From Halovivax ruber XH-70 (GTDB lineage: Archaea; Halobacteriota; Halobacteria; Halobacteriales; Natrialbaceae): a DNA stretch of 64,000 bases. Both the position numbers and the translations under genes were made by a program. Below, piece by piece: positions 1,008 through 18,112 of the stretch (positions are counted from its first letter, which is position 1; the number at the start of each line of letters is the position of its first letter). The DNA is taken from positions 2,542,001-2,606,000 of the forward strand of contig NC_019964.1 of the NCBI RefSeq assembly GCF_000328525.1. The letters are read 5' to 3'. The notes beneath the pieces were generated by a model. It saw nothing but the letters and a program-made list of their open reading frames with translations. It did not search any database and was not told the origin of the DNA.

Positions 1008-1466
1008 TCACGCCGTCCCGCGTCGTTCGACGATCACGAGGTCGGTCCGGGTGTGGACCGGGTCGCCGGCGTCGTTCGTCGCACGGAGACGGAAGGAAAC
1101 CTGGCCGCGATCGTCGCTCCAGGGTGCCTTTTCGACGACCGATATCTCGACGGCGAGTGCGTCGTCGGGCCGAACCGGTTCGTGCCAGCGGAGGTCGTCG
1201 ACGCCCGCGGCGGCGACGACGGCCACGTCCGCGAGGACGGTCTCGACGAACGGTCGCATGCAGGCCGCGGCGGTGTGCCAGCCGCTCGCGATGAGGCCGT
1301 CGAAGTGGCGTTCGGCGGCGGCTTCGTCGACGTGGAACGCCTGGGGGTCGTAGCGCTCGGCGAATTCGAGGAGTTCGTCCTCGGTGATCGTGACAGTGCC
1401 GACGTCCCACTCGTCGCCGACGGCGAGATCCTCGTAATACAGCGGCGATGCGATGTCGGTCGTCAT
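1008..1466 (-). CDS. MaoC-like hotdog hydratase
   Basis: The product has 152 residues with one hotdog fold of the MaoC/(R)-specific enoyl-CoA hydratase family. The catalytic pair is visible as D40 and H45 in YDPQAFH, followed by the GLIASGWHT stretch typical of the family. It would hydrate an enoyl-CoA or a related CoA thioester. It is the last gene of a minus-strand operon RidA - acyl-CoA dehydrogenase - MaoC; only 16 bases separate it from the dehydrogenase stop. I infer a role in the beta-oxidation phase of 2-aminobenzoyl-CoA breakdown, given the other genes in this region. The specific substrate is not shown by the sequence. Confidence 0.85.
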   Translation of the reverse strand: MTTDIASPLYYEDLAVGDEWDVGTVTITEDELLEFAERYDPQAFHVDEAAAERHFDGLIASGWHTAAACMRPFVETVLADVAVVAAAGVDDLRWHEPVRPDDALAVEISVVEKAPWSDDRGQVSFRLRATNDAGDPVHTRTDLVIVERRGTA

Positions 1467-1482: not shown

Positions 1483-2709
1483 TCACTCGTAGAGACGGTT
1501 GGCGACGACGAGGCGGTTGATCTCGTTGGTTCCGTCGTATATTTGGGTCCCCTTCGCCTCGCGCATGTAGCGCTCGACGGGGTAGTCGGTCGAGTAGCCG
1601 CGAGCGCCGTGGACCTGGACGGCGTCGGTCGCGATCTCCATCGCGGCGTCGGTCGCGAACGTCTTGGCCATCGCCGCGTCCTGGGTGATCCGCTCGCCGC
1701 GATCTCGACGGTCGGCTGCGGCGAGCGTAAGGAGGCGAGCCGCCTCGGTTCGAGCCGCCATGTCCGCGAGCGAGAAACTCACGCCCTGAAACTCGCGGAT
1801 GGGCTGGCCGAACTGCTCGCGGTCGTCGGCGAAGTCGCGGCTGGCGGCGAACGCGCCCTGGGCGATGCCGACGCCCTGGGCCGCCGTGCCGAGCCGGCCG
1901 ATGTCGAGCCCTTCCATGATGTAGCGAAAGCCGCGGCCCGCTTCGCCGACGAGGTTGTCGGCCGGGACCCGAAGACCGTCGAAGCGGAGTTCGCTCTCGA
2001 CGGCCACGTCGCCCTCCATGCACGGAATGTTCCGGACGACCTCGATCCCGTCTCGCTCGTGGGGGCGCGGGACGCCGATGATGCTGATCCCGTCGTGGCG
2101 AGCGCCGCCACCCGCCGCGTCGTCCGTCGCACCGTCGTCCGCCGCTCCATCGGTCGGATCGGCCCCCTGTTTGTCGGCCGGATCACTCGTTCGTGCGACG
2201 ATCAGGAGGAGGTCGGCGACGGCGCCGTGCGTGGTCCACCACTTGTGGCCGTCGATGACCCACTCGTCACCCTCGAGCCGGGCGGTGGTTTCGAGCGCCG
2301 CAGCGTCGCTTCCCGCCTCGGGTTCGGTGAGCGCGAACGCCGGGATCCAGTCGCCGGAGCAGACGTTCCCGAGCCACTCTTCGCGCTTTCGGTCGTCGCC
2401 GAACGTCGCGAGCGGGTAGCCGACGAGGCCGCAAGCGATGTTGACCGCACCCGCGAGCAGCTTCCACGAGCGGGCCAGTTCCTCGACCGTGATCGCGAAC
2501 GACCGGAAGTCCCGGTCCGCGCCGCCGACGTCGGTGGGGTATGGAACACCGACGAAATCTTCTTCGCCGAGCCGTCTGACGAGAGCCTCCGGAAACTCAC
2601 CCGCCGCTTCGAGTTCGTCGACGCGGGGGTCGACCTCGCGCTCGCAGAAATCCCGGACGCGCTCGCGCTGGGCCTCGTGGCGTTCGTCTATGGTAAACCG
2701 TTCGATCAT
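1483..2709 (-). CDS. Acyl-CoA dehydrogenase family protein
   Basis: This 408-residue flavoprotein has the standard acyl-CoA dehydrogenase layout. FALTEPEAGSD (flavin and substrate contact) sits near residue 130, GHKWWTTHG follows, and the C-terminal helical domain ends in QIYDGTNEINR. The usual catalytic Glu of IYEGTNE is Asp here, which is conservative but unusual. An Asp/Gly/Ala-rich insertion of about 25 residues lies near residues 180-205. The start overlaps the RidA stop by four bases (ATGA), which points to translational coupling. It is expected to oxidise a CoA thioester and pass electrons to ETF. In this context a ring-derived intermediate of anthranilate degradation is likely, but that is inference. 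Confidence 0.88.
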   Translation of the reverse strand: MIERFTIDERHEAQRERVRDFCEREVDPRVDELEAAGEFPEALVRRLGEEDFVGVPYPTDVGGADRDFRSFAITVEELARSWKLLAGAVNIACGLVGYPLATFGDDRKREEWLGNVCSGDWIPAFALTEPEAGSDAAALETTARLEGDEWVIDGHKWWTTHGAVADLLLIVARTSDPADKQGADPTDGAADDGATDDAAGGGARHDGISIIGVPRPHERDGIEVVRNIPCMEGDVAVESELRFDGLRVPADNLVGEAGRGFRYIMEGLDIGRLGTAAQGVGIAQGAFAASRDFADDREQFGQPIREFQGVSFSLADMAARTEAARLLTLAAADRRDRGERITQDAAMAKTFATDAAMEIATDAVQVHGARGYSTDYPVERYMREAKGTQIYDGTNEINRLVVANRLYE

Positions 2710-3158
2710 GGCGACCTCGACGACTCGGCAGCGGTCGCGTCAGGCCCGCCGTCGTCGGCGTCGTCGATCACGGCGAAGCCCTCCATCTCGATCAGCGCCT
2801 CGTCCTGGTAGAAGCCGCTCACCTCGAACAGCGCCATCGCCGGATACTCCTCGACGTAGTCGGTGAAGATATCACCAACCTCGGCGAGGTGCTCGCGGTA
2901 CCGGTCGCGATCGGCGACGTAGACGTTCAGCTTCACGATGTCGTCGCTCGACCCGCCGGCCTCCTCGACGACCGCGGCCAGGTTCGCCATCACCCGATCG
3001 AACTGACCGACGAGGTCGCCGGGGGCGACGATGTCGCCGTCGGGGCCGGAGGCGTCCTGCCCCGCGAGGAAGAGCGTCTTCCCGCCGTCGACGAGGAAGC
3101 CGTGGTTGAACCCATGGGGCTCCGCCAGGCCCGGCGGTGTCACGATCTGTCTGTCCAT
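2706..3158 (-). CDS. RidA/YjgF/YER057c/UK114 family protein
   Basis: The product has 150 residues and belongs to the RidA family of trimeric enamine/imine deaminases. The N-terminal half fits the family (GKTLFLAG.DA..PDG, and D.V...VYV.D). The family's key Arg, which lies in a PAR-type motif and binds the substrate carboxylate in true RidA, is replaced by Met (PAMALFEV). A classical 2-aminoacrylate deaminase role is therefore unlikely. It is the first gene of the operon with the acyl-CoA dehydrogenase and the MaoC protein. RidA-like genes also accompany bacterial 2-aminobenzoyl-CoA clusters. A role in removing the amino group from a CoA-bound enamine is plausible but not proven. Confidence 0.85.
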   Translation of the reverse strand: MDRQIVTPPGLAEPHGFNHGFLVDGGKTLFLAGQDASGPDGDIVAPGDLVGQFDRVMANLAAVVEEAGGSSDDIVKLNVYVADRDRYREHLAEVGDIFTDYVEEYPAMALFEVSGFYQDEALIEMEGFAVIDDADDGGPDATAAESSRSP

Positions 3159-3448: not shown

Positions 3449-4282
3449 ATGAACGAGGAGGACGGAACGAACGGCACGGAAGCGACGGGCGAGGAGGGGG
3501 CAACCGACGGCGACGGCCGATGCGTGGGCCCGGAACTCTCCGGTCAGGTCGCCGTCGTCACCGGCGGCACACGTGGGATCGGCCGCGCCATCGCCGAGTC
3601 GCTGGCGGCCGCGGGGGCGGACGTCGTGCCAGTCTCGCGCACCGACGCAGACGTCGCGGACGCGGTCGCAGCCGTTCGCGAGCGCGGCGCCGACTCGCTG
3701 GCCTGCCCGACGGACGTGACGGACGACGCGGCGGTGAAGACGTTGGTGGATCGCGCCGTCGCCGACCTCGGCGGGATCGACATCCTCGTCAACAATGCGG
3801 GGATCAACCCCGTCTCGGCGATGGGGCGCCCGGAGACGCTCGATCCCGACGAGTTTCGGCGGGTCGCCGAGGTGAACCTCCAGGGCGCGGTCACCTGCAC
3901 GAGCGCGGCCGGTGACGCCCTGCTCGAGGGAGGCGGCGCCGTCGTCAACGTCGCGAGCACGGCCGGCGTGGTCGGAATCAAGCGCCAGCACGGCTACGTC
4001 GCCTCGAAGCACGGACTCGTCGGGTTCACGAAGAGCGCGGCGCTCGACTGGGCACCCGAGGTGCGTGTAAACGCCGTCGCGCCCGGCTACGTCGACACCG
4101 ACCTCACGGCGCCCGTTCAGGAGTACGACGAGCTCTACGATCGGTTGACCGATCGGACACCGGCCGGCCGCTTCGGCGAGCCCGCCGAGGTCGCCGATGC
4201 CGTCTGCTTCCTGGCGAGCGATATGGCGTCGTTCGTCACCGGCGAGTCGCTCGTCGTCGACGGCGGCTTTACGGTGCAGTAG
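3449..4282 (+). CDS. Short-chain dehydrogenase/reductase (FabG-like)
   Basis: From ATG 3449 the protein has 277 residues. After a Gly/Glu-rich N-terminal tail of about 28 residues it shows the classical SDR set: TGGTRGIG (39-46), NNAG near 115-118, and the catalytic S170, Y183 and K187 (Y..SK). The C-terminus (SFVTGESLVVDGG) is typical of FabG-like NAD(P)H-dependent 3-oxoacyl or 3-hydroxyacyl-CoA oxidoreductases. It is followed by an enoyl-CoA hydratase on the same strand and lies back to back with the RidA operon. I infer it acts as a 3-hydroxyacyl-CoA dehydrogenase or ring-ketone reductase in the 2-aminobenzoyl-CoA route. Confidence 0.88.
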   Translation: MNEEDGTNGTEATGEEGATDGDGRCVGPELSGQVAVVTGGTRGIGRAIAESLAAAGADVVPVSRTDADVADAVAAVRERGADSLACPTDVTDDAAVKTLVDRAVADLGGIDILVNNAGINPVSAMGRPETLDPDEFRRVAEVNLQGAVTCTSAAGDALLEGGGAVVNVASTAGVVGIKRQHGYVASKHGLVGFTKSAALDWAPEVRVNAVAPGYVDTDLTAPVQEYDELYDRLTDRTPAGRFGEPAEVADAVCFLASDMASFVTGESLVVDGGFTVQ

Positions 4283-4340: not shown

Positions 4341-5108
4341 ATGGTCAACGCCGCGTTCACGGTCGAGGACGACGTCGGACGGATCGAGTTGCAGCGGCCA
4401 ACGGCGTTAAACGCCGTCGATCTCGCGACGAAAGACGCGATCATCGAGCACGTCCGCGAGTTCGACGAGCGCGAGGACGTCCGCGTCGTCGTCTTCCAGA
4501 GCGAGGGCGACGTCTTCTGCGCGGGCGGAGACATCGAGGAGGTCCGCGAGCTGGGATACGAACTCGAACCGTTCACCGAGAGCTGGAACGAGCTCTTCGA
4601 GGCGATGATGGGGCTGTCGGTCCCGACGGTCGCCCGGGTCGACGGCTGGGCGCTCGGCGGTGGATTCGACCTCGTCTTGCACACCGACATCCCGATCGCC
4701 GCGGACGACGCGAAACTCGGCCAGCCCGAGACCGGCCTCGGCATCGTGAATCACTTCTCGCCGCCCATCCTCCAGGAGACGGTCGGCCTCACGAAGACCC
4801 TCGACATGATCCTCACCGGCGACCCGATCTCGGGGACGGAGGCGGCCGATCGCGGCCTCGTCGCCCGGAGCCTCCCCGCCGAGGAACTCGACGCCGAGGT
4901 CGACCGCGTCGTCGACGCGCTCCGAGAGAAGCCACCGGAGATTCTCCGGAAGGCGAAGCGAGGGATCTACGCCACCGCCGAGATGTCGCCGCGTGCGAGT
5001 CGGTCCTACCTCGAAGCGATCGCTCTCGAGAGCGCTCGGGAAGAACCGTACTATCGGGAAGGGGTTACGGCGCAGCTCGAAGATCGACCGCCGGAGTGGG
5101 TGCCGTAA
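4341..5108 (+). CDS. Enoyl-CoA hydratase/isomerase family protein
   Basis: This 255-residue crotonase-fold protein has the oxyanion-hole segments CAGGD (60-64) and GWALGGG (102-108). The second catalytic acid is present as the Glu of GQPE (130). The first catalytic Glu position, right after GGG, is Asp110. The start at ATG 4341 begins exactly at the conserved N-terminus (VNAAFTVEDDVGRIEL), and the longer upstream frame overlaps the SDR gene. The gene lies 58 bases downstream of the SDR on the same strand, so an operon is likely. It would hydrate an unsaturated CoA thioester, or hydrolyse a cyclic ketone-CoA as some crotonases do, in the degradation pathway proposed for this region. Confidence 0.88.
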   Translation: MVNAAFTVEDDVGRIELQRPTALNAVDLATKDAIIEHVREFDEREDVRVVVFQSEGDVFCAGGDIEEVRELGYELEPFTESWNELFEAMMGLSVPTVARVDGWALGGGFDLVLHTDIPIAADDAKLGQPETGLGIVNHFSPPILQETVGLTKTLDMILTGDPISGTEAADRGLVARSLPAEELDAEVDRVVDALREKPPEILRKAKRGIYATAEMSPRASRSYLEAIALESAREEPYYREGVTAQLEDRPPEWVP

Positions 5109-6767: not shown

Positions 6768-8417
6768 CTAGTTCGTCCCGGTCTCCTCGCGTTCTCGTAA
6801 CTTCGAGCGCTGTATCTTGCCGGTCTCGGTCGTCGGGAGTGTGTCGAGATACTCGATTTCGCGCGGGTACTTGTACGGGGCGATTGCCGCTTTCACGTGC
6901 TCCTGCAGAGCCTCGGTCAGCGCCGGCGCGGGCTCGGCGCCGTCTTCCGGAACGACGAACGCCTTGACGAGCTGGCCGCGCGCCTCGTCGGGCGCGCCGA
7001 TGACCGCCGTCTGGTAGACGGCGTCGTGTTCCAGGAGGACGTCCTCGACTTCGGGACCGGCGACGTTGTTCCCGCCGGTGATGATCAAGTCGTCCGCGCG
7101 CGAGACGTACTCGAAGCGACCGTCCTCGCGGTGGATGTAGATGTCACCCGGCGCGCTCCAGCCGTCGTAGATGGCTTCGGCTTGCTTCTCCGGGCGATCC
7201 CAGTACGTGACGCCGGTGGGGCCGCGAACGACGAGGAGGCCGGCCTCGCCGCGCGGGAGTTGCTCGCCCGTATCCGGATCGATGACCTTGGCCTCGTAGC
7301 CGGGGACCGGGAATCCCGTCGCCGTCGGATCCATCTCGTCGTGATAGCGGTGGCTGATGAAGATGTGTAGCATCTCGGTCGAGCCGATGCCGTCGGAGGC
7401 TTCGACGCCGAAGTGGTCGCCGATCTGCTCGTAGGTCCGCGGGGGAAGCGGCTCGCCGGCGCTGACCGCCCGGCGCAACGAGGAGACGTCGGCGGACTCG
7501 AGTTGGTCCTCGTGCTCGGCGAACAGCTGGTTGTACGCGGTCGGGACCGAGGCGAGGATGGAGACGTCGTGCTCGTCGACGGCCACGAGGAGGTCGGTCG
7601 GTTCCGGATCCTGTACGAGCACCGTCGTGGCACCAAACCTGAGCGGGAAGGCCACCTCGAACCCGTAGCCGAACGTGAAGGCGATCGGGGCGTTGCTCGC
7701 GAAGACGTCGTCGGGGTTCGGATCGAGGCAGTAGCGGGCGTAGCCGTCGCAGATGGCCAACATTTGACGGTGCGTGTGGACCGTCCCCTTCGGTTTGCCC
7801 GTGGTCCCGCTCGTGTAAGCGATCATGACCACGTCGTCTCGGGTCGTCGTCGGCGCCGAGAGATCGGAGCTCGCCGCGTCGATGAGGTCGTCGTAGCTGT
7901 GATGATCGTGTTCGATCCCATTTTCTTCGACCACGACGATCTCGGCGAGCGACTCGAGCCCCCGTTCGTCCCGTGCGATCTCGAGTTCGTCGAGGAGGTC
8001 GTCGTACACGATGGCGACGGACGCACCGGAGTCCTCGACGACGTAGCTGATCTCGGTCGCGCGCAAGAGCTTCATCGACGGAACTGTCACCGCGCCGATC
8101 TTCTGCGTCGCGAGACAACTGACGACGTACTCCGGCCGGTTCGGGAAACGGACGAACACCCGGTCGCCCGGCTCGACCCCCAGATCGAGGAGGGCATTGG
8201 CGAGCCGGTCGACTCGGTCCTGGAGGTCGGCGTACGTGATCGCTTGGCCATCGAAGATAATCGCCGGTTCGTCACCACGGCCGTGCTCGACGTGGCGGTC
8301 GACCATCTCGGCCGCCGCGTTCACCTCCTCCGGGTAGTGCAGTTCTGGGAGCGCGTGGAACAGGTCCGGCTGTATCGCGTCGTCTGGAAGCCGCTCGGTC
8401 GGGATCGACTCCTGCAT
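6768..8417 (-). CDS. AMP-forming aryl-CoA ligase, probably 2-aminobenzoate (anthranilate)-CoA ligase
   Basis: The product has 549 residues and belongs to the ANL superfamily, which activates a carboxylic acid as an acyl-AMP and then a CoA thioester. The P-loop-like motif YTSGTTGKPKG lies at 201-211. The hinge and A8 region (TGGNNVAGPEVED) follows, and the A10 lysine is K534 in TGKIQRSK. Overall it resembles the benzoate/2-aminobenzoate-CoA ligase group. The ATG at 8417 follows a TATA-like box; a longer in-frame extension would cross that box. It is divergent from trpB. With kynureninase and the 2-aminobenzoyl-CoA monooxygenase-like gene nearby, anthranilate is the most likely substrate. Benzoate or salicylate cannot be excluded. 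Confidence 0.85.
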   Translation of the reverse strand: MQESIPTERLPDDAIQPDLFHALPELHYPEEVNAAAEMVDRHVEHGRGDEPAIIFDGQAITYADLQDRVDRLANALLDLGVEPGDRVFVRFPNRPEYVVSCLATQKIGAVTVPSMKLLRATEISYVVEDSGASVAIVYDDLLDELEIARDERGLESLAEIVVVEENGIEHDHHSYDDLIDAASSDLSAPTTTRDDVVMIAYTSGTTGKPKGTVHTHRQMLAICDGYARYCLDPNPDDVFASNAPIAFTFGYGFEVAFPLRFGATTVLVQDPEPTDLLVAVDEHDVSILASVPTAYNQLFAEHEDQLESADVSSLRRAVSAGEPLPPRTYEQIGDHFGVEASDGIGSTEMLHIFISHRYHDEMDPTATGFPVPGYEAKVIDPDTGEQLPRGEAGLLVVRGPTGVTYWDRPEKQAEAIYDGWSAPGDIYIHREDGRFEYVSRADDLIITGGNNVAGPEVEDVLLEHDAVYQTAVIGAPDEARGQLVKAFVVPEDGAEPAPALTEALQEHVKAAIAPYKYPREIEYLDTLPTTETGKIQRSKLREREETGTN

Positions 8418-8692: not shown

Positions 8693-9850
8693 ATGTCGAG
8701 TGGCACGTTCGGTGAGTACGGCGGCAGACACGTCCCGGAACCGCTCGAGGAACCGCTTTCGCAACTGGCGAATGCCTACGACGACCTGGGAACAAGCGAG
8801 GGGTTCCAGCGGGAGTTTCGCGACCACCTCCGCGAGTACGCCGGGCGGTCGACACCCCTCTATCACGCCAGAAACCTGAGCGATCGGTACGACGCGGAGA
8901 TCTACTTCAAACGTGAGGACCTGCTCCACGGCGGCGCACACAAGATAAACAACTGTCTCGGGCAGGCGCTGCTCGCGAAGAAAGCAGGCAAGGACCGGCT
9001 CATCGCCGAGACGGGCGCGGGGCAACACGGCACCGCGACCGCGATGGTCGGAGCGCTGTTCGACCTCGAGACCGAGATTTACCAGGGGAAGAAAGACATC
9101 GAGCGCCAGCAGATGAACGTGTTCCGGATGCGCCTGCTGGGCGCGCAGGTAAACGAGGTCACACAGGGCGGCGCGGGGCTAGCGGACGCGGTCGACGCAG
9201 CGCTAGGGGATCTGGTCGAGAACGTCGAGGACACCCACTACCTCGTCGGCAGCGTCGTCGGCCCCGACCCGTTCCCGCGCATGGTCCGTGACTTCCAGTC
9301 CGTCCTCGGCGAGGAAGCTCGCGAGCAGTTCGTCGAACGGACGGGTGACCTGCCCGACGCCGCGGTCGCCTGCGTCGGGGGCGGATCGAACGCGATGGGC
9401 CTCTTCGACGCCTTCCGCGACGACGAGGAAGTCGCCCTCTACGGTGCCGAGGGCGGCGGAAAGGGCGCGGCGTCGACCCAGCACGCCGCGCCGCTCGCGG
9501 CCGGGCGGGACGACGTGATCCACGGGATGAAAACGCGCGTCCTCGACGACGACGTCGAGGTTCACTCCGTCTCCGCCGGCCTGGACTACCCCGGCGTCGG
9601 CCCCGAACACGCCATGTTCCGTGACTCCGGTCGCGTGACCTACGAGGGCGTCACCGACGACGAGGCCCTGGCCGCCTTCCGCGAACTCAGCGAGACCGAG
9701 GGCGTCATCCCCGCGCTGGAATCGAGCCACGCCGTCGCGCGGGCGATCGAACTCGCCGAGGAAAGCGATCACGATACCATCCTCGTCAACCTCTCCGGCC
9801 GGGGTGACAAGGACATGGAGACCGCGGCGGAGCAGTTCGACTTCGCCTGA
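8693..9850 (+). CDS. trpB: Tryptophan synthase beta subunit (stand-alone TrpB-like)
   Basis: This 385-residue PLP enzyme of the TrpB1 type would join indole and serine to make tryptophan. The PLP lysine is K84 in HGGAHKINN, where most TrpBs have HTGAHK. The catalytic Glu is E106 in AETGAGQHG, the phosphate cup GGGSN lies at 229-233, and the late motifs [20 protein letters not shown] and NLSGRGDKD are intact. The region that normally contacts TrpA (about 130-170) looks divergent, with QGGAGLADA where SGS.TLKDA is usual. No trpA or other trp biosynthesis gene is in the window. Its place among tryptophan-degrading genes is unexpected; indole salvage or a changed reaction are both possible. Confidence 0.9.
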
Positions 9851-9863
9851 CCGACGAGAAGGG

Positions 9864-10841
9864 TTATTCCACCCACTCCCGAATCGCCTCGGCCAGCGCG
9901 TCCATCGCCTCGTCCGCCCGTGAGACGCTGTCGGTCAGGCTCAGGAAGCCGTGAGTCATCGACGGGTAGTGGTCGTGGTCGACTGCGACGCCGTGATCGG
10001 CCAGTCGTTCCGCGTAGGCCGCGCCTTCGTCTCTGAGCACGTCGTGACCGGCGGTCACCACCGTCGCGGGTGCCACGCCGGCGAGATCGGGCGTGCGGCA
10101 GACGGTCGCGAACGGGTTGTGTTCGTCGACCGGGCTGCGGAGGTACTGGTCCCAGAACCAGCGAACGTCGGCCTCGGTGAGCAGCGGGCCATCGCCGTGT
10201 TCGTCGTAGGACGGGCGGTCGAACCGCCGGTCCGTCATCGGATACAGGAGGAACTGACCGTCGAGGTCGAATCCGGCGTCTCGCGCCCGGATCGCCGACG
10301 CGGCCGCGAGGTTCCCGCCGGCGCTCGTCCCGACGACGCCGAGTCGGTCGGGATCGCCGCCCAGTTCGGCCGCGTGCGCGGCAGCCCACTGCAGGGCGGC
10401 GTAGGCGTCGTCGGTCGCCGCCGGGAACGGGTGCTCGGGCGCGAGTCGATAGTCGACCGACAGGACCAGCGCGCCCGCACGGCTCGCCAGTTCGCGACAG
10501 ATGTTGTCCGACGAGTCGAGCGTCCCGAGCGTCCAGCCGCCGCCGTGGGTAAAGACCAGCGTCGGCGGGTTCTCGCGGTCGGGCCGGTAGACCCGGATCG
10601 ACAGGTCGCCGCCGGGGCCGTCGATACGCAGGTCCCGCACGGTTCGCAGATCGGGGCTGGCCCCGCCGGAGAACACCTCGTCTTCGATGCGCCGCGCGCT
10701 GGCGACCGAGAGCGCCGACCACTGGGGCACGCCGGCCGCCTGGATGTCCGCGACGACCGCGGCGAGTTCGGGGTCGAGTTCGTCGGTCGACTCCCGATGC
10801 GGTTCGTCGTGCTCGCTCGATTCGACTGCGGTCTCGTCCAT
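9864..10841 (-). CDS. Alpha/beta hydrolase (HSL family), candidate kynurenine formamidase
   Basis: From ATG 10841 the product has 325 residues. It is a hormone-sensitive-lipase-type alpha/beta hydrolase with the oxyanion motif HGGGW (99-103), nucleophile S173 in GTSAGG, D267 in AGHDVLRDEG and H297 in MTHGF. Family members are esterases, amidases and, in animals, arylformamidase, which shares the HGG-type oxyanion motif. It is divergently arranged with kynureninase (171 bases apart) and close to the IDO-type dioxygenase. It is therefore the best candidate in the window for turning N-formylkynurenine into kynurenine. No KynB-type metal-dependent formamidase is seen. The activity is inferred from context; the family alone would only support carboxylesterase. 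Confidence 0.82.
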   Translation of the reverse strand: MDETAVESSEHDEPHRESTDELDPELAAVVADIQAAGVPQWSALSVASARRIEDEVFSGGASPDLRTVRDLRIDGPGGDLSIRVYRPDRENPPTLVFTHGGGWTLGTLDSSDNICRELASRAGALVLSVDYRLAPEHPFPAATDDAYAALQWAAAHAAELGGDPDRLGVVGTSAGGNLAAASAIRARDAGFDLDGQFLLYPMTDRRFDRPSYDEHGDGPLLTEADVRWFWDQYLRSPVDEHNPFATVCRTPDLAGVAPATVVTAGHDVLRDEGAAYAERLADHGVAVDHDHYPSMTHGFLSLTDSVSRADEAMDALAEAIREWVE

Positions 10842-11012: not shown

Positions 11013-12320
11013 ATGGTTGACAGCGAAAGTGAGGGTGACGCCGCGGCCGATGCGAGTCGCCGCGACGCCCGCGAACGCGACCGGGCCGATCCCCTCGCCG
11101 ACTTCCGCGAACGCTTCGAGATTCCCGACGACTACTACATGGACGGCAACTCGCTGGGACCGATCTCCGACGCGGCCGAGGAGAGCCTCCAGCGCGCCGT
11201 GGACCAGTGGCGCGACCAGGCGATCCGCGGCTGGACCGGCTCGGAGCCGCCCTGGTTCTGGTACGGCGAGCGACTCGGCGAGGAGCTCGCCCCCCTCGTC
11301 GGCGCGGACCCCGACGAGGTCGTCGTGGGCAACTCGACGACGATCAACATCCACACGCTCGTTGGAACCTTCGTAGACGCGCGCGAACCGGACGAGCCCC
11401 GCGGTGTCCTCGTCAACGACCTCGACTTCCCGACGGACCACTACGCGATCCAGTCCCAGCTACGCCAGCGCGGGCTCGACCCCGACGAACACCTCCACCT
11501 CGTCGAGAGCAGGGACGGACGGACCATCGAAACCGAAGACGTGATCGACGCGATGGATACCCACGATGTCGGCATCGTCTTCATGCCCTCGGTGCTGTAC
11601 CGCAGCGGGCAGCTGTTCGATATCGAGGCCATCACGGAGGCGGCCCACGAGCGGGACATCCTGGTCGGGTTCGACCTGGCGCACTCGATCGGCGTCGTTC
11701 CCCACGACCTCTCGGAGATCGGCGTCGACTTCGCCGTCTGGTGTTCCTACAAGTACCTGAACGCGGGCCCCGGCGCCGTCGCGGGCCTGTACGTCAACGA
11801 ACGCCACTTCGGCGAGTCACCCGCGCTCGCGGGCTGGTGGGGCCACGACAAGGAGTCACAGTTCGAGCTGAACCTCGACTTTACGCCCGCAGGCGACGCC
11901 GGCGCCTGGCAGGCGGGGACGATCCCGGTCTTCAGCGCCGCGCCGCTGTTTGGTGCGCTCGAACTCACCCACGACGCCGGCATCGATGTGATCCGCGAGA
12001 AGTCGGTCGACCTGACGACCTACCTGATCGACCTCGTCGACGAGCACCTCGCCGAGCGCGGGGTCTCGGTCGGGACGCCCCGTGATCCGACCCGCCGCGG
12101 CGGCCACGTCGCCCTCGAACACCCCGAAGCCGAGCGAATCAGCGAGGCACTTCGCGACCACGAGGTCGTCGTCGACTTCCGCCCACCGAACGTGATCCGC
12201 GTCGCCCCTGCGCCGCTGTACGTGCGCTACGAGGACGTCTACGACGTCGTCGAGATCGTGGCCGACATCATCGACGAGAAGCGCTACGAGAAGTACGAGG
12301 CAGCCGGCGACGTGACGTGA
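11013..12320 (+). CDS. kynU: Kynureninase
   Basis: The product has 435 residues and is a fold-type I PLP enzyme that cleaves L-kynurenine into anthranilate and L-alanine. The PLP lysine is K247 in the signature WCSYKYLNAGPG. D221 and H224 of GFDLAHSIG contact the cofactor ring. The substrate-side motif MDGNSLGP (43-50) and FMPSVLYRSGQ are also typical. An acidic N-terminal tail of about 25 residues precedes the conserved part. ATG 11013 was chosen because the long upstream frame is antisense to the hydrolase gene. Kynureninase fixes the meaning of the neighbourhood, since it connects the IDO-type enzyme to the anthranilate-CoA route. Confidence 0.93.
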   Translation: MVDSESEGDAAADASRRDARERDRADPLADFRERFEIPDDYYMDGNSLGPISDAAEESLQRAVDQWRDQAIRGWTGSEPPWFWYGERLGEELAPLVGADPDEVVVGNSTTINIHTLVGTFVDAREPDEPRGVLVNDLDFPTDHYAIQSQLRQRGLDPDEHLHLVESRDGRTIETEDVIDAMDTHDVGIVFMPSVLYRSGQLFDIEAITEAAHERDILVGFDLAHSIGVVPHDLSEIGVDFAVWCSYKYLNAGPGAVAGLYVNERHFGESPALAGWWGHDKESQFELNLDFTPAGDAGAWQAGTIPVFSAAPLFGALELTHDAGIDVIREKSVDLTTYLIDLVDEHLAERGVSVGTPRDPTRRGGHVALEHPEAERISEALRDHEVVVDFRPPNVIRVAPAPLYVRYEDVYDVVEIVADIIDEKRYEKYEAAGDVT

Positions 12321-12396: not shown

Positions 12397-13563
12397 TCAT
12401 CGCGTCTGCGCCGCCGTCTCCTCCTGCATCACCTGCAAGAACTCCATGTAGTCCGTCCCGCCGGTACCGGTCGTGTCGCCGGTCACCGCCCGAATGTACT
12501 GGATGACCTGCCCGAAGTGGACGCGCCGGAAGGTGGCGAGCGAGTCGGTACAGTCGTTGTACGCCTCGCGGAGGTCGTCACGGTCCGCCCGGTCGACGTA
12601 CTCGCCGATCGCCGGTCCACGGTCGAACGCGTCGATCACCTCGCGGTGGGATTCGGGCATGTAGCTGCGCATGTCCGTGAGCTTCTCGACGAGTTCGGTC
12701 GTGGCGTGGTCGACGCCGAGGGCGGCGTCGAGCGAGGGAAGGATGGAACTCTGGGCGCCGGACCCACCGCGGTAGGTGCGCGTCTCGCCGTCGAAGCCGT
12801 CGACGCCCTCGTAGACGACGTCGTCGAACCCCTCGTAGTACGGGCGGTACTCGCGAGCGAAGACCTCGGGGTCGTTGCGCTCGGTCATCCGGCGCATGAT
12901 CTCGGTCTGGGCATCGATCGAGTCGGCGAGGGTCTCGAGTTCGCCGACCAGTGCGTCCGGATCGTCGGCACGGACAGCCTCCTGCGCGTTCGCACCGGCC
13001 CAGAGCGCTTGCCCCGCCCGTGCCTCGATCGCGACGTGGATGACGACGAACCAGCGCTCGTCGTCGTGCTCGGTGAACTGAACGAGTGCCTCGAGATTCG
13101 TCGGCTCTGTGAGCGCGGCGTCTGGTTCGTGGCGGCGCCAGTTGTGGAGACAGAGCTGGTCGTAGGAGAGGATGGGTTTGCGACCGAACCGGCGAGACGT
13201 TTCCACGAGCGGGACGGCGACGGACTCGGGGAGCCGATCGGCGGACGCAGCGTCGACCTGGTGGACGTACGCGCTGGCGAAGAAGCCACTCAAGGTGCAG
13301 AGCCGGATCGCCTCGCGATCCGAGAGCGAGGCGACCGCGTCGGCCGACAATTCGGGCAGCGAATCGACCGCCGGCCGGACGGTCCCCTCGTCCAGCCGCG
13401 CCGGCAGTTCCGCGCCCAGCCGGTCGAACGCTTCCAGGGCCGCGCCGACCGGCGATTCGTGGGCATCGGACTCGAACGAAGGGAGAGGATCGCGCTCGGG
13501 GAGAAAGCCGCGTTCGCGAGAGATATCGTGGTGATCGAGAACAACCGCGGCGGATCGAGTCAT
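12397..13563 (-). CDS. Indoleamine 2,3-dioxygenase family heme enzyme (tryptophan ring opening)
   Basis: This 388-residue protein matches the IDO family, not the tryptophan 2,3-dioxygenase (KynA) family. From memory of human IDO1, the C-terminal half lines up well: VYEG (250-253), GGSGAQSS (266-273), DMRSYMPESHR (298-307), LREAYNDC (331-338), heme ligand H349 in FRRVHFGQVIQYI, and the mobile-loop motif GTGGT (366-370). R240 aligns with the substrate-binding Arg231. The position of human Ser167 appears to be His176, which resembles the active-site His of TDO. It would convert tryptophan and O2 to N-formylkynurenine. It is convergent with kynureninase and divergent from the LLM gene. Confidence 0.9.
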   Translation of the reverse strand: MTRSAAVVLDHHDISRERGFLPERDPLPSFESDAHESPVGAALEAFDRLGAELPARLDEGTVRPAVDSLPELSADAVASLSDREAIRLCTLSGFFASAYVHQVDAASADRLPESVAVPLVETSRRFGRKPILSYDQLCLHNWRRHEPDAALTEPTNLEALVQFTEHDDERWFVVIHVAIEARAGQALWAGANAQEAVRADDPDALVGELETLADSIDAQTEIMRRMTERNDPEVFAREYRPYYEGFDDVVYEGVDGFDGETRTYRGGSGAQSSILPSLDAALGVDHATTELVEKLTDMRSYMPESHREVIDAFDRGPAIGEYVDRADRDDLREAYNDCTDSLATFRRVHFGQVIQYIRAVTGDTTGTGGTDYMEFLQVMQEETAAQTR

Positions 13564-13592
13564 CGTCGAAACGGACGCGAAGGAGCCGTATC

Positions 13593-13600
13593 AATATTTA
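13593..13600 (-). promoter_or_regulatory. TATA-like box for the IDO-type gene
   Basis: AATATTTA (minus strand TAAATATT) lies about 32 bases upstream of the ATG at 13563. It is one of the most AT-rich spots in the catabolic region. Confidence 0.5.
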
Positions 13601-13761
13601 TCCGGTAATAGACACACCGATGGCGAGAGGTGCGGATCAGCACGAGAGGGCGGGCCCCAGTGTGTAAATCCACACGTTGATGGGCGGTTGTTGACATCGA
13701 CGCGGGAGACAGTGGCTCGACGAACGAACGGGTCGGACGAATCGGTCACGCTCACCGTCAG

Positions 13762-13768
13762 GTATACG
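13762..13768 (+). promoter_or_regulatory. TATA-like box for the LLM/monooxygenase operon
   Basis: GTATACG lies about 29 bases before the ATG at 13793. It probably drives the two-gene unit formed by the LLM protein and the large monooxygenase. Confidence 0.4.
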
Positions 13769-13792
13769 TGAACACCTGTCGAGGCTGTGGCC

Positions 13793-14644
13793 ATGCACGT
13801 CGGAATTGGCCTGCCGAACACGCTAGACGCCGACGGCGAGACGCTCCTGTCGTGGGCCCGGCGCGCCGACGACGGACCGTTCTCGAGTATCGGCGTCTTC
13901 GATCGGCTGGTGTACGAAAGCACGGACCCGCTCACGACGCTCGCGACCTGCGCCGGCGTCACCGAGGACGTCCGGCTCGCGACGTCCATCGTCGCCGGCC
14001 CGCTCCGAAACGACGCGTTGCTAGCAAAGCGCGCGGCGACTGTCGACCAGCTCTCGAACGGGCGACTCACGCTCGGACTGGCGCTCGGGGCCCGCCGCGA
14101 GGACTACGAGGCCGCCGGGGCGAGCTACGACGACCGCGGCAAGCGCTTTTCGCGGCAGTTGAGTCGACTTCGGGAGATCTGGGACGACGACGCGTTCGGC
14201 CCCGAGCCCGTCCAGGACAGCGGCCCGCAGGTGCTCGTCGGCGGCGACAGCGACCCGACGTTCCAGCGCGTCGGTCGGTACGGGGACGGGTACATCCACG
14301 GCGGCGGCCCGCCGCGAGCCTTCGAACGGAACGCCCAGCAGGCCCGGGCCGCCTGGACCGAATCGGGACGGCCGGGCGACGCCGACCTCTGGGGGCACGG
14401 CTACGTCGCGCTCGGCGAGGAGGCCGAGGAACGCGGTCGCGAATACCTGCTGGACTACTACGCCTTTACGGGCCCCTTCGCGGAGACGATCGCGGACAGT
14501 CTGCTGACCACCCCGCAGGAGGTGCTCTCGTTCGTCCGCGGCTACGCCGACGCCGGCTGCGACGAACTCCTGCTGTTTCCGACCGTCGCCGACGGGGACC
14601 AGTACGAGAAACTCGAGACGCTGATCGAGACCGAGTGGCGGTGA
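13793..14644 (+). CDS. LLM-class (luciferase-like) F420-dependent oxidoreductase
   Basis: From ATG 13793 (a GTG lies two codons upstream) the protein has 283 residues. It has the bacterial-luciferase-like TIM barrel of the F420-dependent group: the start VGIGLPNT, then DRLVYES, SIVAGPLRN..LLAKRAATVDQLSNGRLTLGLALG, and VLVGGDSDPTFQRVGRYGDGY. These enzymes use F420H2 or FMNH2 for hydride transfer or oxygenation. Its stop is four bases before the start of the large flavin monooxygenase gene, so the two are surely co-expressed. I infer that it supplies or replaces the reductive half-reaction of 2-aminobenzoyl-CoA dearomatisation. The cofactor choice cannot be proved by eye. Confidence 0.85.
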   Translation: MHVGIGLPNTLDADGETLLSWARRADDGPFSSIGVFDRLVYESTDPLTTLATCAGVTEDVRLATSIVAGPLRNDALLAKRAATVDQLSNGRLTLGLALGARREDYEAAGASYDDRGKRFSRQLSRLREIWDDDAFGPEPVQDSGPQVLVGGDSDPTFQRVGRYGDGYIHGGGPPRAFERNAQQARAAWTESGRPGDADLWGHGYVALGEEAEERGREYLLDYYAFTGPFAETIADSLLTTPQEVLSFVRGYADAGCDELLLFPTVADGDQYEKLETLIETEWR

Positions 14645-14648
14645 TCCG

Positions 14649-16814
14649 ATGCAGGTAACCGTCGTCGGCGGCGGCCCCGCCGGCCTGTACGCGAGTCTCT
14701 TGCTCAAAAAGGAGTACCCCAACTGGGAGATCTCGGTCTCCGAACGCGACCCGGCCGACAACACCTACGGCTGGGGCGTGGTCTTCTCCGATGCGACACT
14801 GTCGAACCTCAAAGAGGCGGACACGGAGAGTCACGAGCGCATCACCGACGCTTTCGTTCGCTGGGATCCGATCGACGTCCACCTGAAAGGTGAGTCCATC
14901 CGCTGTGGTGGCCACACCTTCGCCGGCATCATGCGCGCGGACCTCCTGACGATCCTGCAGGAGCGGTGCCGGGCGGTCGGCGTCGACCTGAATCACGACG
15001 TCGCGATCGATGATCCCGAAGCGCTGGAAGCGGAGTCCGACCTGCTGATCGGCGCCGACGGGCTCAACAGCACGGTCAGGGAAACCTACGAGGACGCGTT
15101 CGCTCCGAGCGTCTCGTCTGGATCGGCCAAGTTCGCCTGGTTTGGCACCGAGAAACCGTTCGACGTCTTCACGTTCATCTTCCGGGCAAACGAACACGGC
15201 CTCTGGCGCGTCCACGCGTACCCGGGGCGGATGAGCACGTTCATCGTCGAGTGTACCGAGGAAACCTGGGACGCCGCGGGGATGGACGAGAAGGACGAGG
15301 CGGACGCGATCGCCTACCTGGAGGACCTGTTTTCCGACCACCTCGACGGCTACGACCTGCAGAGTAAGCTCTACGCCTGGCGGAACTTCCCCGTCGTGGA
15401 GTGTGGTTCGTGGTCGAAGCGCGACGAGGTCGTCCTCCTGGGCGACGCGGCCCACACCGCGCATTTCTCGATCGGCTCCGGGACGAAACTCGCCCTGGAG
15501 GACGCCATCTCGCTGCTCGAGGGGTTCAGAGAGCACGGCACCGACGTCCGCTCGGCGCTCAATCACTACGAGAAGGAGCGTCGCCCGCGCGTCGAAGGCC
15601 TCCAAGCCGCCGCCGAGCGCAGCCAATCGTACTTCGAGAACGTCGAGCGATACTGGGACCTGCCGCCGGAACAGTTCGCCTACAATCTGCTGACTCGAAG
15701 CGGTCGCATCTCCTACGACAGCCTCAAGCAGCGCGACGTGGGCTACGCCGACGCCTACGACCGGTGGTTCGAAGCGCAGGCATCGGTCGGCGAGGGCGGG
15801 GCCACAACGCCGAGTGACGGAATCGAGCCGCTCGCTGCCAGTCGACCGCTGAACCAACCGCTCACGCTCCGCGAGACGACCGTCGACAACCGGCTGACCG
15901 TCACCCGGCCGCCGAGCAACGGGTCGACGGATGGGGTCCCTGGGGCCGCGTACCTAGACGACCTCCGTGAGCGGGCGAGGGGCGGGCCCGGCCTCCTGCT
16001 GACCGATCCAGTCGCCGTCAGTCCCGACGGGCGGATCACACCGGGCACTCCCGGACTGTACGAGGACGCACACGTCGACGCCTGGGGCGCGTTCGTCGAC
16101 GAGGTCCACGCGGAGACGGATACCGCGGTCGGCCTGCAGCTGGTCCACGCCGGCCGGCGTGGGGCCACGCGCCACCGCGAATACGGCCTCGACCGGCCGC
16201 TCTCGCCCGAGGAGCGCTGGGAGCTGTACGCACCCTCCGCGAATCCCTACGTCCCAGGCGGTCCCACACCGACCGCGATGGACGCCGACGACTGCGACCG
16301 GATTCGAGAGCGCTTCGTCGGCGCCGCTGAGCGCGCCGCGAACGCCGGGTTCGACTACCTCCAGCTCCACGCCGGCCACGGCTACCTCCTCTCGTCGTTC
16401 CTCTCGCCGCTCACGAACGATCGCGCGGACGAGTACGGTGGCTCGCTCGAGGCGCGGATGCGATACCCGCTTTCGGTCTTCGACGCCGTGCGCGACGCCT
16501 GGCCCGACGGGAGGCCGCTCGGGGCCGCGCTGCAGGCGACCGACTGGAACCTGAGCGGGTTGAAGACCCGAGACTCGCTGCAGGTCGCCCACGAGTTCGC
16601 CGACCGGGACTGCGACCTGCTCTCGATCGTGGCCGGGCAGGCGACCGTTCGCGAACGGCCGCGCTACGATCCAACCGTCCTCGCCGACTTCACCGAGACC
16701 TATCGAAACGAGACCGGGGTTCCGGCGCTCTCGACGAACTACGTGACGACCTACGACGAGGTCAACACGCTCGTCGGCGCGGGCCGCGCCGACCTCTGTA
16801 CGTACAGATCCTAG
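14649..16814 (+). CDS. 2-aminobenzoyl-CoA monooxygenase/reductase-like fusion protein
   Basis: The product has 721 residues in two parts. Residues 1-380 form an FAD monooxygenase: GGGPAGL (7-13), DLLIGADGLNSTVR (131-144) and LLGDAAHTAHFSIGSGT (263-279). It is the type found in 2-aminobenzoyl-CoA monooxygenase/reductase and salicylyl-CoA 5-hydroxylase. Residues 400-721 form an old-yellow-enzyme-like barrel (GRITPG, QLVHAGRRG, LHAGHGYLLSSFLSPL..DRADEYGGS). This second half looks degenerate: the usual PM.MY start is replaced, the Arg before the ATDW stretch is gone (GAALQATDW), and the protein stops right after GAGRADLC, before the RP.L..P flavin-phosphate region. It would hydroxylate and dearomatise anthraniloyl-CoA. 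Bacterial relatives are, from memory, longer by about 50-70 residues. Confidence 0.87.
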   Translation: MQVTVVGGGPAGLYASLLLKKEYPNWEISVSERDPADNTYGWGVVFSDATLSNLKEADTESHERITDAFVRWDPIDVHLKGESIRCGGHTFAGIMRADLLTILQERCRAVGVDLNHDVAIDDPEALEAESDLLIGADGLNSTVRETYEDAFAPSVSSGSAKFAWFGTEKPFDVFTFIFRANEHGLWRVHAYPGRMSTFIVECTEETWDAAGMDEKDEADAIAYLEDLFSDHLDGYDLQSKLYAWRNFPVVECGSWSKRDEVVLLGDAAHTAHFSIGSGTKLALEDAISLLEGFREHGTDVRSALNHYEKERRPRVEGLQAAAERSQSYFENVERYWDLPPEQFAYNLLTRSGRISYDSLKQRDVGYADAYDRWFEAQASVGEGGATTPSDGIEPLAASRPLNQPLTLRETTVDNRLTVTRPPSNGSTDGVPGAAYLDDLRERARGGPGLLLTDPVAVSPDGRITPGTPGLYEDAHVDAWGAFVDEVHAETDTAVGLQLVHAGRRGATRHREYGLDRPLSPEERWELYAPSANPYVPGGPTPTAMDADDCDRIRERFVGAAERAANAGFDYLQLHAGHGYLLSSFLSPLTNDRADEYGGSLEARMRYPLSVFDAVRDAWPDGRPLGAALQATDWNLSGLKTRDSLQVAHEFADRDCDLLSIVAGQATVRERPRYDPTVLADFTETYRNETGVPALSTNYVTTYDEVNTLVGAGRADLCTYRS

Positions 16815-16948: not shown

Positions 16949-18112
16949 ATGCTGGATTACGTCTCCCTGGAGGCAGATTTAGACGCCGAGGAGCGGATGA
17001 TCCGTGACACGGCCCGCGAATTCGTCGACGAGAAGGTCCGCCCGGACATCGCCGACCACTACGAGGCGGGGACCTTCCCCACCGACCTCATCCCCGAACT
17101 CGGGGAACTCGGGTTCTTCGCGCCGAACCTGGAGGGCTACGGCCTCCCGAACGTCTCCGAGACGGCCTACGGCCTCCTGATGCAGGAGCTCGAAGCCTGC
17201 GACTCCGGTGTTCGATCGATGGCCTCGGTGCAGGGCTCGCTCGTCATGTACCCGATCCACGCCTACGGCAGCGAGGCCCAGAAGGACGAGTGGCTCCGAG
17301 ACATGGGGACGGGCGAGGCCATCGGCTGCTTCGGCCTCACCGAGCCCGAACACGGCTCGAATCCCTCCGGGATGGAAACCGCCGCGGAGAAGGACGCGGA
17401 CGGCTACGTCATCAACGGCTCGAAGACCTGGATCACGAACGCGCCGATCGCCGACGTGGCGATCATCTGGGCGCGCGATCGCTCGGCCGACGACGAACCG
17501 GTTCGCGGCTTCCTCGTCGAGACCGACCGCGATGGGTTCTCGACGAACAAGTTAGACGACAAACTCTCGCTGCGCGCCTCGATCACCGGCGAGATTGGCC
17601 TGAACGACGTCCGCGTTCCCGAGGAGAACGTCCTCCCCGGCGTGGAGGGGATGAAGGGGCCGCTGTCGTGTCTCACGCAGGCTCGCTACGGCATCGCCTG
17701 GGGTGCCGTCGGTGCCGCCCGCGACGCATTCGAGCAGGCCCGCGAGTACGCCCTCGAACGCGACCAGTTCGACGGCCCCATCGCGCGCTTCCAACTCCAG
17801 CAGGAGAAACTCGCCGAGATGGCCACCCAGATCACCACCGCCCAGCTGCTGGCCTACCGTCTCGCCGAACTCAAAGAGCGCGGCGACCTCCGCCCACAGC
17901 ACGTCTCGATGGCCAAACGCAACAACGTCCGCATGGCCCGCGACCAGGCCCGTGTCGCCCGCGAGATGCTCGGCGGCAACGGCATCACGACCGACTACTC
18001 GCCGATGCGCCACATGGCGAACATGGAGACGGTCTACACCTACGAAGGCACCCACGACATCCACACGCTGATTCTTGGCCAGGATTTGACTGGGATTGCG
18101 GCTTTTGAGTAG
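16949..18112 (+). CDS. gcdH: Glutaryl-CoA dehydrogenase-type acyl-CoA dehydrogenase
   Basis: From ATG 16949 the product has 387 residues. It carries family hallmarks of glutaryl-CoA dehydrogenase instead of a generic acyl-CoA dehydrogenase: SGVRS.ASVQGSLVMYPI (R89, the likely glutarate carboxylate-binding Arg), IGCFGLTEPEHGSNPSGMET, and the catalytic Y365-E366 in TYEGTHDIH. This enzyme oxidatively decarboxylates glutaryl-CoA to crotonyl-CoA and passes electrons to ETF. It sits 134 bases after the monooxygenase gene on the same strand. A glutaryl-CoA step at the end of aromatic-CoA degradation is well known in bacteria, so it fits as the lower part of the proposed pathway. An independent role in lysine breakdown is also possible. 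Confidence 0.9.
   Translation: MLDYVSLEADLDAEERMIRDTAREFVDEKVRPDIADHYEAGTFPTDLIPELGELGFFAPNLEGYGLPNVSETAYGLLMQELEACDSGVRSMASVQGSLVMYPIHAYGSEAQKDEWLRDMGTGEAIGCFGLTEPEHGSNPSGMETAAEKDADGYVINGSKTWITNAPIADVAIIWARDRSADDEPVRGFLVETDRDGFSTNKLDDKLSLRASITGEIGLNDVRVPEENVLPGVEGMKGPLSCLTQARYGIAWGAVGAARDAFEQAREYALERDQFDGPIARFQLQQEKLAEMATQITTAQLLAYRLAELKERGDLRPQHVSMAKRNNVRMARDQARVAREMLGGNGITTDYSPMRHMANMETVYTYEGTHDIHTLILGQDLTGIAAFE

Follow-up and report, generated by a model that had tools for sequence, protein, structure and literature searches.

The question raised by this locus is whether the gene at positions 12397-13563 (minus strand; 388 aa, ATG start) encodes an indoleamine 2,3-dioxygenase (IDO) or a tryptophan 2,3-dioxygenase (TDO), and what such an enzyme would do in a haloarchaeon, here Halovivax ruber XH-70, whose genome is a single contig of 3,223,876 bp. 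The window, by which we mean the whole 64,000-nucleotide stretch of that genome which was analysed, had previously been read by eye, and the initial annotation preferred IDO; the profile searches bear this out. Pfam IDO (PF01231) gave a full-length match of 274.5 bits on residues 9-357 (gathering cut-off 26), whilst the best TDO match (TIGR03036, residues 328-381) scored 20.6 bits where the cut-off is 390.7, this being the sole NCBIfam match of the protein, and Pfam Trp_dioxygenase (PF03301) had no matches across the genome. On these scores a TDO identity is rejected, and by family membership the protein is an IDO. A phmmer search of the PDB sequences returned human IDO2 (E=1e-40) and IDO1 (E=8e-36) as the closest solved structures, and several haloarchaeal homologues have already been annotated as IDO by NCBI. 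The suggested likeness to the animal and fungal enzymes holds in so far as these nearest solved relatives are human, but identity to human IDO is about 25% and the bacterial IDOs are closer (34-38%); the protein of the nearest named relative, Halovivax asiaticus, is 91% identical.

All of the motifs picked out by eye are present: GGSGAQSS (residues 266-273), DMRSYMPESHR (297-307), His349 and the C-terminal GTGGT loop (366-370). Residue equivalences come from aligning the protein with the two human enzymes, IDO1 and IDO2; the spacing of 179 between human residues 167 and 346 was checked there. His349 (codon 12517-12519, minus strand) aligns with His346 of human IDO1, the proximal heme ligand, and Arg240 with Arg231, the arginine which binds the substrate carboxylate; Phe172 and Ser268 correspond to Phe163 and Ser263. 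In the alignment of prokaryotic IDOs both His349 and Arg240 are invariant. At the position of human Ser167 lies His176 (codon 13036-13038, minus strand), which does resemble the distal histidine of TDO, as had been pointed out. However, it does not set this protein apart, since every prokaryotic and viral-contig IDO that was examined carries the same residue: histidine is invariant in the 23 prokaryotic sequences aligned (18 from IDO-positive Halobacteria, two from further Haladaptataceae, two from Methylocystis and one from Sphingobium) and is also found in the IDOs of four viral contigs, of which two share an identical protein. The human enzymes have Ser (IDO1) and Thr (IDO2), and in this small sample it is Ser/Thr at position 167 which looks like a eukaryotic departure.

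IDO and TDO perform the same chemistry, TDO with a distal histidine and IDO without one. The case for the importance of this residue has rested mainly on mutants, and IDOs which naturally bear it allow the comparison to be tested with native enzymes. In the pocket of the archaeal protein, His349 would ligate the heme, Arg240 would hold the substrate carboxylate and His176, replacing Ser167, could hydrogen-bond the indole NH in the manner of the distal histidine of TDO. The latter is a known catalytic facilitator, and the distal histidine of MarE hydrogen-bonds the indole nitrogen (PMC11904535). By analogy, the His-bearing prokaryotic enzymes may be IDO by family and TDO-like in the distal histidine alone. 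A true TDO or an IDO-TDO hybrid, to which both His176 and the weak TDO match at residues 328-381 might be taken to point, is most improbable given that this match falls so far under its cut-off, that the IDO match spans the full length, and that the top 50 Foldseek hits were all IDO1 or IDO2, although at a TM of about 0.44 and from a low-confidence AlphaFold model (pLDDT 55).

IDO was detected in 18 of 391 Halobacteria genomes, belonging to three families, and a set of 391 genomes drawn likewise yielded no TDO, the search giving matches in two control genomes. In the haloarchaea surveyed it is thus IDO, not TDO, that forms the recognisable entry enzyme to the kynurenine route. Kynureninase is nonetheless much more widespread than IDO: of 58 haloarchaeal genomes lacking IDO, 25 have it, even though TDO is found in 0/391. 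Amongst haloarchaeal plasmid records, the seven with kynureninase are the same seven with IDO, and the presence of IDO on these plasmids offers a route for its spread.

In an unrooted tree, which held three bacterial sequences, all from plasmids, and no fungal one, the 20 haloarchaeal IDOs formed one clade (96/94) which included the sequence from the window and had bacterial proteins (Methylocystis) as its nearest neighbours, with the human IDOs separated by a 100/100 branch. It had been suggested that the gene arrived by transfer from bacteria or fungi or is of old prokaryotic origin; the position of the clade beside bacteria and of the human enzymes behind their own branch lends no support to recent transfer from animals, and a recent fungal origin, less testable with this set of sequences, is likewise unsupported. 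Nor does base composition carry any signal of recent foreign insertion, the IDO gene appearing native with a GC3 of 0.86, like its neighbours.

Four IMG/VR viral contigs (L065/L072, L066/L070, L067/L071 and L068/L069) also carry full-length IDO homologues, which are 31-35% identical to the protein in the window and retain the active-site residues. In L071 a gene for a T4-like DNA polymerase (phrog_262, 626 bits) comes immediately after that for IDO, and L065 encodes a phage endolysin (phrog_7, 221 bits); the IDOs themselves had no match to any PHROG family or GenBank phage. One would not expect phages to encode tryptophan breakdown.

As to what the enzyme does, the gene neighbourhood is informative. 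A kynureninase gene at 11013-12320 (plus strand; TIGR01814, 379.4 bits, cut-off 246.4; PDB kynureninases at E=2e-71) lies beside that for IDO, as the initial annotation had it, but the catabolic cluster around the pair, a gene set of 17 kb, was missed. The two genes are 76 bases apart and convergent, and are therefore not co-transcribed in the window. On the other side of kynureninase is an alpha/beta hydrolase (Abhydrolase_3; 9864-10841, minus strand; Pfam 255 bits), a candidate N-formylkynurenine formamidase. A gene of this family is found near kynureninase in Halovivax, Natronococcus, Natronosalvus and Haladaptatus pallidirubidus; however, the family also holds esterases, the LipP1 esterase model exceeds its cut-off for this protein, and it could be an ordinary esterase. 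At 6768-8417 (minus strand) lies an aryl-CoA ligase (TIGR02262, benzoate-CoA ligase, 388 bits against a cut-off of 375), a putative anthranilate-CoA ligase, whose top two PDB relatives are a benzoate-CoA ligase (2v7b) and an anthranilate-CoA ligase (4wv3).

On the plus strand, the gene at 14649-16814 encodes a fusion of an FAD monooxygenase (FAD_binding_3, PF01494, residues 2-318) with a reductase of the OYE type (Oxidored_FMN, PF00724, residues 401-717). This flavoenzyme is of the 2-aminobenzoyl-CoA monooxygenase/reductase (ACMR) or salicylyl-CoA 5-hydroxylase type; it scores 845 bits with the model for the latter (NF006101), below the cut-off of 1078, and is called no more than "ACMR-type" here. 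Directly upstream of it is an LLM-class flavin/F420 oxidoreductase (13793-14644, plus strand; Bac_luciferase, 119 bits), an adjacency that is shared with four further genomes (G043, G047, G263 and G297), Haladaptatus caseinilyticus and Halomicrococcus. The 229-base gap at 13564-13792, from which IDO and the LLM and fusion genes diverge, may contain a promoter or regulator site common to both sides.

The remaining members of the set are two acyl-CoA dehydrogenases (16949-18112, plus strand, assigned by family models; 1483-2709, minus strand), a member of the enoyl-CoA hydratase/isomerase family which is a candidate ring hydrolase or hydratase (4341-5108, plus strand), an SDR dehydrogenase (3518-4282, plus strand, the true start being slightly upstream), a MaoC-type hydratase (1008-1466, minus strand) whose homologues are annotated as MaoC/PaaZ C-terminal domain, a second tryptophan synthase beta subunit (TrpB) considered below, and a RidA-family protein (2706-3158, minus strand; TIGR00004, 54 bits, below the cut-off of 106). 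The RidA gene is kept near ACMR in Haladaptatus, in Halomicrococcus and in a cluster of the bacterium Paroceanicella.

We consider it likely that the cluster serves to degrade tryptophan aerobically by way of kynurenine, anthranilate and anthraniloyl-CoA. IDO would convert tryptophan to N-formylkynurenine, from which the alpha/beta hydrolase would remove formate, leaving kynurenine; kynureninase would cleave this into anthranilate and alanine, and the CoA ligase would activate anthranilate to anthraniloyl-CoA. The fused flavoenzyme would then hydroxylate and reduce the ring to yield 2-amino-5-oxocyclohexene-carboxyl-CoA, after which deamination, ring opening and beta-oxidation could be shared amongst RidA, the SDR, the enoyl-CoA hydratase, the acyl-CoA dehydrogenases and MaoC. 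RidA proteins have enamines and imines as substrates, which would suit the product of the fused flavoenzyme, and we propose the RidA-family protein as its candidate deaminator. Family membership, individual residues and the conserved gene set are what the sequences show; from these we infer each reaction, the sequence of steps in the lower pathway and what His176 does. Judged from gene content, the cluster probably lets this archaeon use tryptophan as food; a role in NAD synthesis is disfavoured, as NadA is present in the genome and NAD need not come from tryptophan.

Association across genomes bears on whether the upper and lower parts of this scheme belong together. Kynureninase was found in 16 of the 18 IDO-positive genomes as against the 25 of 58 lacking IDO (Fisher p=8e-4), and the full-length ACMR-type fusion in 10/18 as against 1/58 (p=4e-7), the relatedness of the genomes compared meaning that these p-values overstate independence. 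Much of the set recurs with altered gene order on Natronococcus plasmids and in Haladaptatus pallidirubidus and Haladaptatus caseinilyticus, and in Halomicrococcus it is split between two places of one plasmid. That much or all of the module accompanies IDO on Natronococcus and Haladaptatus plasmids with its order shuffled argues for function and not simple synteny. In H. asiaticus, the hydrolase and kynureninase are kept near IDO, the anthranilate genes are absent from its vicinity and the genome has no full-length ACMR, thus the lower pathway is not obligatory.

This last arrangement, the frequency of kynureninase in IDO-negative genomes and the name of the model matched by the fusion would all be in keeping with another reading, in which IDO and kynureninase stop at anthranilate, to be reused for tryptophan synthesis or excreted, whilst the CoA-thioester genes degrade some other aromatic acid such as salicylate or benzoate. 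We regard this as unlikely, considering the association of full-length ACMR with IDO and the inclusion of RidA, which fits an amino-substituted ring. The bacterial relatives of ACMR are instructive here. That of Cupriavidus is flanked by cupin and fumarylacetoacetate hydrolase (FAH) genes, as expected for salicylate degradation via gentisate, whereas that of Paroceanicella is flanked by genes for an SDR, enoyl-CoA hydratases, an acyl-CoA dehydrogenase, an AMP-ligase and RidA. The haloarchaeal set resembles the latter context rather than the former, and no gentisate-type genes (cupin, FAH) were found among the window genes examined.

A different objection concerns the first step. Some IDO-family proteins turn over tryptophan at rates too low to serve catabolism, the enzymes of Erythrobacter and Neptuniibacter and the fungal gamma IDOs being recorded as slow (PMC4217691), and MarE is an example of a related fold that works as a monooxygenase (PMC11904535). 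The haloarchaeal homologue might in the same way be a poor tryptophan dioxygenase and act on another substrate (an indole derivative, D-Trp or tryptamine) or in peroxide/oxygen chemistry, and one of the two IDO-positive genomes without kynureninase could be cited in favour of this. In that genome, G118 (L031, L048), IDO lies near subunits of a Rieske-type ring-hydroxylating dioxygenase, a dihydrodiol dehydrogenase-like SDR and an extradiol dioxygenase-like gene, perhaps another lower pathway. In the other, G351 (L057/L040), a full-length fused flavoenzyme was not detected either. The equivalent of Arg231, the heme histidine and the GTGGT loop are nonetheless all kept in the protein from the window, and its gene adjoins kynureninase and a candidate formamidase, leaving a role of this kind improbable.

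Our preferred reading, a route from tryptophan to anthraniloyl-CoA, has to accommodate the tryptophan synthase gene inside the cluster, which is odd in the company of genes for breakdown. This second TrpB (8693-9850, plus strand; TIGR00263, 546 bits) is one of two copies in the genome; the other belongs to the trpCBA operon at 2.33 Mb and shares 51% identity with it. In several haloarchaea the second TrpB travels with the genes for tryptophan breakdown, and in Halomicrococcus it comes after the run of genes with the fused flavoenzyme, in the same direction. One idea is that it captures indole by joining it to serine; no tryptophanase was recognisable in the genome. Taken together, the prokaryotic IDOs might form a natural class with the IDO fold and a TDO-type distal histidine, serving in haloarchaea an aerobic route from tryptophan to anthraniloyl-CoA into which a dedicated TrpB feeds indole by coupling it with serine, but as a joint proposition this is tentative. 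If it were true, the poorly defined steps which follow the 2-aminobenzoyl-CoA monooxygenase/reductase would be among those encoded by the RidA, SDR, hydratase and LLM genes.

The literature searched, which covered few subscription journals, held nothing specific on archaeal IDO, haloarchaeal kynurenine catabolism or S167H. The IDO family is well established and the distal histidine of prokaryotic IDOs is not presented here as new; it is the archaeal pathway that is undescribed in that literature. The cluster provides a concrete, testable gene set for the aerobic use of tryptophan and anthranilate in archaea.

Set against known systems, the haloarchaeal enzyme shares with human IDO1 and IDO2 its full-length homology, proximal heme histidine, substrate arginine and GTGGT loop, and differs in having His for Ser167/Thr, Ala for Phe227 and Val for Phe164. 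The S167H mutant of human IDO1 (PDB 6CXU, 6CXV; the former crystallised with Trp and cyanide) has the same histidine at the same position, engineered in the human enzyme but natural and invariant amongst the relatives of the haloarchaeal one. With TDO (KynA) it has in common the proposed reaction and the distal histidine, in contrast to the lack of any family-level sequence match. The bacterial IDOs on Methylocystis and Sphingobium plasmids also bear the histidine; however, the bacterial loci seen do not lie beside kynureninase or ACMR. The closest parallel to the lower pathway is the aerobic anthraniloyl-CoA pathway of Azoarcus evansii and Arthrobacter Rue61a, which likewise has a CoA ligase and a fused monooxygenase/reductase; in Arthrobacter Rue61a anthranilate-CoA ligase activity has been shown and the metabolites support a CoA-thioester route (PMC3534580). 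The RidA, SDR, enoyl-CoA hydratase and acyl-CoA dehydrogenase genes of the haloarchaea are as in Paroceanicella, whilst the pathway proposed here differs from those of Azoarcus evansii and Arthrobacter Rue61a in being archaeal, in being fed by IDO and kynureninase, and in the addition of LLM, TrpB and MaoC genes.
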